A DNA stretch of 53,014 bases, taken from Gammaproteobacteria bacterium (lineage in GTDB: Bacteria > Pseudomonadota > Gammaproteobacteria > SZUA-229). The stretch spans positions 1 to 53,014 of the forward strand of contig JAJRUQ010000174.1 of NCBI GenBank assembly GCA_024277705.1. Direction: 5' to 3'. Numbering within the stretch: the stretch's first letter is position 1; each line of letters starts with the position of its first letter. Below the pieces are notes generated by a model. It had not been told where the DNA came from and ran no database searches. It saw nothing but the letters and a program-made list of their open reading frames with translations. Position numbers and translations under genes: made by a program. Below are positions 5,521 to 41,188 of this stretch, one piece after another.

Positions 5521-6810
5521 CTAATGCTCCAGTTTTGAACGAGGAAAATCACAACGAAACAGGCTGCCTTTACCATATTCACTTTGAATTGCCAGATTTG
5601 CGCTATGACGGTCTAGCACATGTTTCACAATAGCAAGGCCAAGACCCGTACCGCCGATTTCTCTGGAACGTCCTTCATCAACCCGGTAAAAGCGTTCTGT
5701 TAACCTTGGAATATGTTCATATTGAATACCCACTCCGGAATCCTGTACAGCAATTGAGATAACGGTGTCATTTTCCGAAACAAATAATTTTATGTCTCCA
5801 TCTGGTGGAGTGTAACGTATAGCATTGGTCATCAGGTTAGAAAATACCATGCGCAATTCATCATAATTTCCATATAAATACCGGGCGTCTTTATGCTTCA
5901 GATCATCAGTATCAATATCCAGCACTATGCGGTGTTCATTGTTATCCAGTGACAATGCTTCATTATAAACATCCTGCAACAAGGCATTGATCTCAACTCT
6001 GACTGAAGAATCAATGGTTGCAGATGATTCGATTTTTGCCAGTTCAATTAACTCAGAAATAATTTTATTCATTCTGACGATCTGTTCTTCAATTTTTTCA
6101 AGCGGCACTTTTATATTGTCACCGGCATTATGAGACAGAAATTCAACATAGCCGGACATTACAGTTAAGGGTGTACGTAGTTCATGTGATGCATTGGAAA
6201 TAAAATCACGGCGCATGTTCACTACCTGACTCATGGCAGTAATATCACGGGCACTCAGTAAATACTGGCCTTCGCTGTATTTTGTTATGTTTAAAATTAT
6301 TTTCTTTTTATGCAGAATAAATTTCAAGGGTTGTTTGAATTTTTTATGCTGGAGGTATTTGGTGAATTCAGGCAAACGTATCAGATTATCTATACGCTGA
6401 CCGATATCTATTCGTTTATGCAGGTCAAACATTTGACTGGCAGCAGGGTTAAACCACTCAATTTCATTATATTGATTTAAAATAATGGCCGCATACGGTA
6501 ATGCCTGAGTCGACTTCTGAAAGCGATTGAGAATATCGGTCAGTTTTCGTCTGGCTTTGCGCTGGCGTTTATAAAGATTGTACAACTGATAATACACCTC
6601 ATCCCAGACACCTATGGATTCCGGTGAGTGCTTTGAAGGCTTCGCCAGCCACTTACTCAGTTTATTGAGGTTATACAGATTCCACGCAACATAAGCCAGT
6701 AATCCGGCAAGCAAAAATCCGGTAACAGAATTAAATACAGCTCCCAGTATCAGCATAACGAACAGCCATGCAGCTAATACCACCAGCTCACGTTGTAACG
6801 GTGCGGTCAT
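5521..6810 (-). CDS. phoR: Phosphate regulon sensor histidine kinase PhoR
   Basis: SNASHELRTPLTV H-box, GGTGLGLAIVKH ATP-binding motif, PAS domain, adjacent to phoB. Confidence 0.92.
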   Translation of the reverse strand: MTAPLQRELVVLAAWLFVMLILGAVFNSVTGFLLAGLLAYVAWNLYNLNKLSKWLAKPSKHSPESIGVWDEVYYQLYNLYKRQRKARRKLTDILNRFQKSTQALPYAAIILNQYNEIEWFNPAASQMFDLHKRIDIGQRIDNLIRLPEFTKYLQHKKFKQPLKFILHKKKIILNITKYSEGQYLLSARDITAMSQVVNMRRDFISNASHELRTPLTVMSGYVEFLSHNAGDNIKVPLEKIEEQIVRMNKIISELIELAKIESSATIDSSVRVEINALLQDVYNEALSLDNNEHRIVLDIDTDDLKHKDARYLYGNYDELRMVFSNLMTNAIRYTPPDGDIKLFVSENDTVISIAVQDSGVGIQYEHIPRLTERFYRVDEGRSREIGGTGLGLAIVKHVLDRHSANLAIQSEYGKGSLFRCDFPRSKLEH

Positions 6811-17519: not shown

Positions 17520-19298
<1,779 letters not shown>

Positions 19299-39848: not shown

Positions 39849-40319
39849 CTATTTCGCCAGCAGTTTTCTCAGTAAGTCCATCCTGCTGTTGACCTTTTCC
39901 TCGGGTATAAAACGCTGAGGATGATCGATGACATAGATACCTTCTTTAGCGGCTTCTTTACGCAAGAACCACAGACCTTTCTGTCCGCGATGAAAGAATA
40001 TATCATCGCTCTTGCGCATGCTACCGGCTAACCGGGGCAACTGTATATAGATAACTTCCTGCTGATTACCCTTTAAAGTGTTCTCGACATCCAGCACACC
40101 AAGATGCAGGATTTCGCCATCCACTTTCAGGCTCACATCAGCGCCACCTATATAAACAGCATTAACAATCAGCGATGAAGCCTCAACCAACTCTGCATCT
40201 GACATGCCAGCCCACATCGCCTGAACGCTTCCTGCACCGCTCAGTGCGAGAAACAGAAGAAGCAGTCGACTGCTGAAGCGTACATGAGAAACAGCATCAA
40301 GGGATGGCAACATAGCCAC
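39849..40319 (-). CDS. Exported protein of unknown function
   Basis: 156 aa, signal peptide-like N-terminus (LLLLFLALSGAGSVQA); same strand and directly downstream of the matrixin-like gene. Confidence 0.5.
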   Translation of the reverse strand: MAMLPSLDAVSHVRFSSRLLLLFLALSGAGSVQAMWAGMSDAELVEASSLIVNAVYIGGADVSLKVDGEILHLGVLDVENTLKGNQQEVIYIQLPRLAGSMRKSDDIFFHRGQKGLWFLRKEAAKEGIYVIDHPQRFIPEEKVNSRMDLLRKLLAK

Positions 40320-40354: not shown

Positions 40355-41188
40355 TTATACGCGGCTTTTTCTACGACCGAAAAATCCAAGTGCGCCTAAA
40401 CCAGAAAGCAGAAGATAAGCGGCAGCAGGTACAGGTACTGCAGTACCATAAATAGACTGAATACCAGCAATATCGTCCAGACCAAGAGCTGTTTGACCAC
40501 TGTAGTATGGCTACATAATGGAATTAACATCAGTACTGTGGCCCAGACCTAAAGAATGTCCCAGCTCATGAACCAGTACGGCGCTCAGGTCAAAACCACC
40601 GGTTCCCCAGTTTTCATCCTTATCAAGATGCACATCACCGGTGATGGTGCCACCGGCACCAAAAATCGCTTCAGTACCCGGCTGATAAGCATGTGCCAGT
40701 ACGTTACTTGAGCCGTCGATATAAATTGCACCAATTCGGATATCACCCAGTTGACCACCAACTAATTCAGAAGCACCCATGCCAACATTACCATCGGCTA
40801 CCTGACCAAGATTACTAAAACCGGAAACGCTTGCCCAGGCATTCAAGGCATTATCAACCATAGCCTCAACAGCATTCTGCGTAAAACCCAGTGAGGTAAT
40901 ATCAGAGGTTGCAGCGTTACTATGTGAATCAAAACCAGAAGCATCAGACAGACCGGCACCCATGATACTCCAGGTTGCACCACCTTCAGCCGGGAAACCA
41001 CCAACTCTGGCAGTGTTTGCGCCTGGATCCCATGCGGTTGGTGTCGTGAAATAGGTGTACTCATCACTTTGCGGGCCATTAGGGTTCAGATAACCAGCAT
41101 TCGCTGTGGTTACCATTGCAGACATTAATACGCCGACTGATAGTACTGTCGAACATAGGCTTTTACATTTAAGCATTGTTTTCTCCAT
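40355..41188 (-). pseudogene. Matrixin-like (M10) metalloprotease with PEP-CTERM-like tail, interrupted by in-frame TAG at 40511-40513
   Basis: HELGHSLGLGHSTDVNSIM then TAG, then same frame PYYSGQTALGLDDIAGIQSIYGTAVPVPAAAYLLLSGLGALGFFGRRKSRV* to 40355. Confidence 0.88.

Follow-up and report, generated by a model that had tools for sequence, protein, structure and literature searches.

A probable consensus error explains an in-frame TAG in a secreted bacterial matrixin gene, which neighbours a candidate inhibitor gene

The TAG codon interrupting the matrixin gene in the window (the whole stretch of 53,014 nucleotides that was analysed) is probably a consensus error of the draft assembly and likely absent from the gene of the organism; we put the probability of this reading at about 0.7. 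Assembly error is ranked first because similar stops hit genes that cannot be dispensed with. The gene itself encodes an ordinary secreted matrixin carrying a C-terminal VPLPA sorting signal, and a TAG acting as a regulatory stop most likely does not exist. The gene downstream of the matrixin is more interesting than the stop codon, which is unrelated to the pair that the two genes form.

Matrixin gene and its internal TAG codon

The matrixin (M10A) gene is located on the minus strand at 40355..41188, starting with ATG at 41188 and ending with a natural TAA at 40355-40357, and comprises 277 codons when the TAG is counted as a residue. It encodes a signal peptide and a VPLPA-CTERM tail. Codon 226, immediately 3' of the methionine of the Met-turn, reads TAG in the sequence (40511..40513, minus strand), in the context ...DVNSIM-TAG-PYYSGQ..., where the methionine closes ...HELGHSLGLGHSTDVNSIM, and the frame stays open for 51 codons afterwards. 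The preliminary description of this locus, with an in-frame TAG in a matrixin-like protease gene bearing a PEP-CTERM-type (VPLPA) tail, is therefore confirmed in these respects. It had also placed the stop on the Tyr of a SIMYP motif: the stop does follow directly the Met of S-I-M, but the Tyr was inferred, and the closest orthologue carries Phe (TTT) there.

If the TAG terminates translation, a product of 225 amino acids is made (40514..41188, minus strand), which includes the signal peptide, the N-subdomain, the zinc motif and the Met of the Met-turn. The zinc motif HExGHxxGxxH, with its three His and Glu, reads HELGHSLGLGHS and is invariant in seven relatives; it lies ahead of the stop and would still be made, as had been proposed. 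The Met-turn and C-terminal helix were said to be lost together with the tail. The Met itself is kept, while the loss begins at the next residue and does take in helix C and the tail.

The 51 codons 3' of the TAG (40358..40510, minus strand) were characterized by profile matches, codon signature and alignments, and encode in order the segment after the Met, the C-terminal helix region, a VPVPAAA sorting motif, a hydrophobic stretch and a basic RRKSR end. Their codon signature falls at the 28th percentile of gene windows and the 90th percentile of random frames, which is within the range of real genes, i.e. the coding signal goes on beyond the stop. Read through the stop, the protein matches PF00413 (Peptidase_M10) at 100.1 bits (cut-off 24) over residues 102-248, with the alignment reaching the last profile position, and a genome search reading through stops gave 98.3 bits for the same gene. 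Moreover, the tail scores 33 bits against TIGR03370 (VPLPA-CTERM; cut-off 25.35) and is the top match of this profile genome-wide. Because it combines coding-like codons, the C-terminus of a matrixin and the top-scoring VPLPA-CTERM signal, the continuation is far beyond chance. For the pattern S-x-M-[YF]-P, SIM is encoded, then TAG, then PYYSG...DDIAGIQSIYG, so that a complete Met-turn with helix C exists only with read-through or if the real gene has no TAG.

Separate translation of the tail was rejected, as the 51 codons contain no ATG, GTG or TTG and encode no signal peptide. No second matrixin copy was found in the genome, and the DNA of the locus was not found in viral contigs. An AlphaFold model of the matrixin, with a pLDDT of 55, was set aside as poor.

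Conservation beyond the TAG codon in related matrixins

The closest orthologue, from a genome of the same genus (G006, locus L004), is 71% identical and uninterrupted, the comparison covering residue 53 onward, where the G006 contig begins. At the TAG site it reads ATG TTT CCC, i.e. a Phe codon follows the Met. In further relatives from other families the residue after the Met is F, Y, N, G and F, and in human MMP-1 it is Tyr, so the TAG that was to be looked for in related genomes is a sense codon in these genes. Compact-type relatives extend past the Met to a C-terminal tail, and all seven related genes encode, beyond the TAG site, the segment and the C-terminal helix needed for a complete matrixin fold. 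Homologues ending at this point had been named as evidence that would overturn the preliminary description; among the relatives examined, no uninterrupted one terminates at the site. Most genomes of the genus are without a matrixin orthologue.

Six columns in the lost 51 residues (D238, D239, I240, G242, Y247 and G248) are invariant in 7 of 7 relatives, and their counterparts in the MMP-1 alignment lie where its catalytic domain ends. The matrixin profile aligns to MMP-1 ...ALMYPSYTFSGDVQLAQDDIDGIQAIYG, and therefore what is lost is a portion of the catalytic domain. The stop does not separate the catalytic domain from the tail, as had been suggested, for the cut lies within that domain. The smallest matrixin described as active needs helix C (PMC3406945). 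With helix C and the invariant residues lost, a released and active short form, the function proposed for the truncated product, is unlikely.

Between the window and G006, NG86 dN/dS is 0.181/1.169 (0.15) before the stop and 0.233/0.836 (0.28) after it. With G297 as outgroup, window-specific versus sister-specific changes are 12:10 before the stop and 2:1 after it. The tail is without decay and its frame is intact, which indicates that the stop is either very young or not real.

Internal stop codons elsewhere in the genome

TAG is an ordinary stop codon in this genome (G000), since an RF1 gene is present and a search for a tRNA reading it was negative: 26 tRNA matches were located in a genome that is 82.5% complete, and none of the genes around them has a CTA or TTA anticodon. 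TAG ends 85 of 452 ORFs of at least 200 amino acids in the genome sample, and it stands at the normal ends of conserved genes in the window, e.g. the ORFs ending at 5521, 8326 and 33775.

We scanned 816 kb of G000, the window included, for stops with coding signal on either side, with 805 kb of the same-genus genome G011 as a control. About ten in-frame point stops were detected in G000, and the interrupted genes are matrixin, nirS, bamA, glyS, ubiH, tolA, ppiB, ttcA, a BatB-like VWA protein and a rhodanese protein. The ttcA gene was named from its PP-loop domain match and the known sequence of the protein, and the name is presumably correct. The second in-frame stop of the window lies in nirS (cytochrome cd1 nitrite reductase; 17586..19298, plus strand), where TAA at 19119-19121 occupies a Glu site (GAG or GAA in relatives) and is followed by 58 conserved codons. 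The nirS gene of another genus genome, G003 (L112), also contains a TAA, but the Glu codon affected is not the same one, by which a stop shared between the two genomes was rejected. Aligned with solved structures, BamA, GlyS, PpiB and NirS of G000 cross each stop without gap or shift.

The bamA and glyS genes are present in 18 of 18 genomes of the genus, and their internal TAG codons (L104:2948, minus strand, and L161:9352, plus strand, respectively) occur in G000 only. E. coli and other well-studied relatives cannot live without either protein, and real nonsense alleles are therefore not expected in their genes. What we observe are the stops, their conserved positions and their absence from bamA and glyS elsewhere in the genus, and from these we infer that the stops arose in sequencing or assembly. 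The matrixin TAG would then be one of about ten point stops per 816 kb, others of which fall in bamA, glyS, tolA, ubiH and nirS. With a nonsense share of 4%, a rough estimate from the ten stops is one wrong base in about 3 kb of coding sequence. Such a pattern is characteristic of consensus errors. The genome statistics (82.5% completeness, 5% contamination, 202 contigs) make it very probable that G000 is a metagenome bin, and consensus errors would agree with this. In-frame stops of this genome should accordingly not be taken as biology.

The residues replaced by the stops are mixed (E, Q, S and probably Y). TGA accounts for none of the ten stops (0/10 vs 21% expected, P about 0.09); its absence is not significant, and the stop types agree with random substitution. 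A HipA-like gene in G000 may carry an internal TGA. A CGN codon directly follows 5 of the 10 internal stops (L104:2948, L134:9125, L136:6654, L157:3534 and L161:9352), compared with about 5% expected. Random errors do not explain this excess; a sequence-specific error or a mutation bias is possible. Natural gene ends with TAG-CG also occur, e.g. in an outer-membrane protein gene of L094, and therefore the excess does not point to a hidden code.

The control genome G011 shows such stops most clearly in an alkylsulfatase-like frame, which two TAGs interrupt (L171:758 and L171:878), and there are a few weaker candidates, possibly including a DUF1566-like gene. The reciprocal comparison of G000 and G011 yielded a small number of shared genes besides numerous antisense shadow frames, and only nirS and ubiH were usable.

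Possible explanations of the TAG codon

A recent and real nonsense mutation, leaving a truncated and probably unfolded or inactive protease as a young pseudogene or strain polymorphism, is the reading that we would consider after assembly error, and we regard it as rather unlikely. The matrixin is accessory, being missing from most genomes of the genus; its remaining frame is intact, as for a young event; and a few non-essential genes are interrupted in G011 too, showing that real nonsense alleles occur in the genus. However, the background of false stops is high, and the same assembly has such stops in indispensable genes. We think it very improbable that the 225-residue product has protease activity and is released for want of its sorting tail. 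Such a truncation would keep the three His, the Glu and the Met, all of which are ahead of the stop, but the cut falls inside the catalytic domain rather than at the border between domain and tail, it removes helix C (PMC3406945) and residues invariant in 7/7 relatives, and no uninterrupted relative terminates there.

The internal stops might also be tolerated, even in essential genes, through an ochre or amber suppressor tRNA or through read-through of stop+CGN, and to this we give an equally slight chance. About ten internal stops exist, the firm cases are all TAA or TAG with essential genes included, CGN follows five of them against about 5% expected, and a suppressor tRNA could be encoded in the missing part of the 82.5% complete genome. 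Against suppression, RF1 is present, neither anticodon was found around the 26 tRNA matches, TAG terminates 85/452 long ORFs, the stops replace more than one kind of amino acid, the missing TGA is not significant and the HipA-like gene may hold a TGA. Context read-through was rejected in particular: the CGN counts are suggestive, yet natural TAG-CG gene ends exist. Reassignment of TAG to an amino acid is the least credible of all. The conserved sequence that goes on past the matrixin TAG would agree with it, but it is contradicted by the tests made, and a change of genetic code was rejected on the presence of RF1, the TAGs at normal gene ends (5521, 8326 and 33775) and the TAA codons that interrupt genes as well. 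A consensus error thus remains the preferred reading of the matrixin TAG.

Sorting signals and exosortases

Two PF09721 matches (245 and 185 bits) represent exosortases in the genome. Together with these two, 39 VPLPA-CTERM-like tails were found genome-wide at an E of 0.1 or less, and 21 score above the cut-off. By these sequence matches, G000 appears to encode a large set of sorted surface proteins. The presumed route of the matrixin, taken from what is known of the family, would lead from a Sec signal peptide through export to recognition of the tail by an exosortase, and then to attachment to the surface or to exopolysaccharide. The background paper on sorting tails and exosortases (PMC1569441) is itself a hypothesis paper.

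The gene downstream of the matrixin

About 35 bases downstream of the matrixin lies a conserved neighbour of 156 amino acids (39849..40319, minus strand), which ends in TAG and has a probable signal peptide ending in SVQA. The two genes are also adjacent in three other genomes (G006, G297 and G046). In a class-wide sample of 369 genomes, the partner occurs only where the matrixin is present, except for one weak match that looks spurious. It has no match in Pfam or NCBIfam.

The best of five AlphaFold models of the partner reached a pLDDT of 69.7, the others being much worse. Foldseek of this model against PDB gave agrin NtA, TIMP-2 and TIMP-1 as the best matches (E 7.6e-4 to 1e-2, probability 1.00), and no viral structure match was found. 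Compared with TIMP, the partner sequence profile scored 17.4 against a shuffle maximum of 17.9, i.e. there is no sequence match above noise. The mature protein is predicted, by eye, to begin with [MS]-W, its second residue being an invariant Trp; the conserved columns contain no Cys, and the N-terminal Cys-x-Cys and disulfide pattern of TIMPs is absent. The predicted fold and the gene neighbourhood suggest that the partner is a candidate cognate inhibitor of the matrixin, a good lead rather than a result.

More tentatively, the two genes could form a secreted module of environmental bacteria, in which a matrixin is paired with a TIMP-like (NTR-fold) inhibitor that would lack cysteines and be related or analogous to animal TIMPs, and whose invariant Trp could enter the S1' pocket; we consider this possible but doubtful. 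TIMPs have been described as a eumetazoan family (PMC10755359). If true, a TIMP-fold inhibitor beside a bacterial matrixin would allow MMP/TIMP control to be studied in a simple bacterial model, and would bear on the origin of the MMP/TIMP pair.

Comparison with known systems

With MMP-1 and bacterial karilysin (matrixins, M10A), the present protein shares HExGHxxGxxH and, when read through the TAG, the Met-turn and the following region up to the final DDIxGIQxIYG, and the matrixin profile matches the two at E 2.5e-34 and 7e-33, respectively. It differs from both by its C-terminal VPLPA sorting signal, the lack of a hemopexin domain and the TAG after the Met. Like PEP-CTERM/VPLPA-CTERM proteins, which go with exosortases (PF07589, TIGR03370, PF09721), it has a signal peptide, VPVPAAA, a hydrophobic stretch and an RRKSR end, but its tail stands behind a stop codon in the present assembly.

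The partner resembles TIMP/NTR-domain proteins (agrin NtA, TIMP-1 and TIMP-2) in its predicted fold, whereas it differs from TIMPs in having neither N-terminal cysteines nor a sequence match above noise. The potempins of Tannerella forsythia inhibit the neighbouring KLIKK protease, and provide a bacterial example of a matrixin that is encoded with its own inhibitor (PMC7296668). The likeness to these pairs is that a small, probably secreted protein is encoded beside a matrixin-type protease, with inhibition as the candidate function of the partner only; in contrast to potempins, the partner follows the protease gene, has no lipoprotein Cys and has a predicted TIMP/NTR fold.
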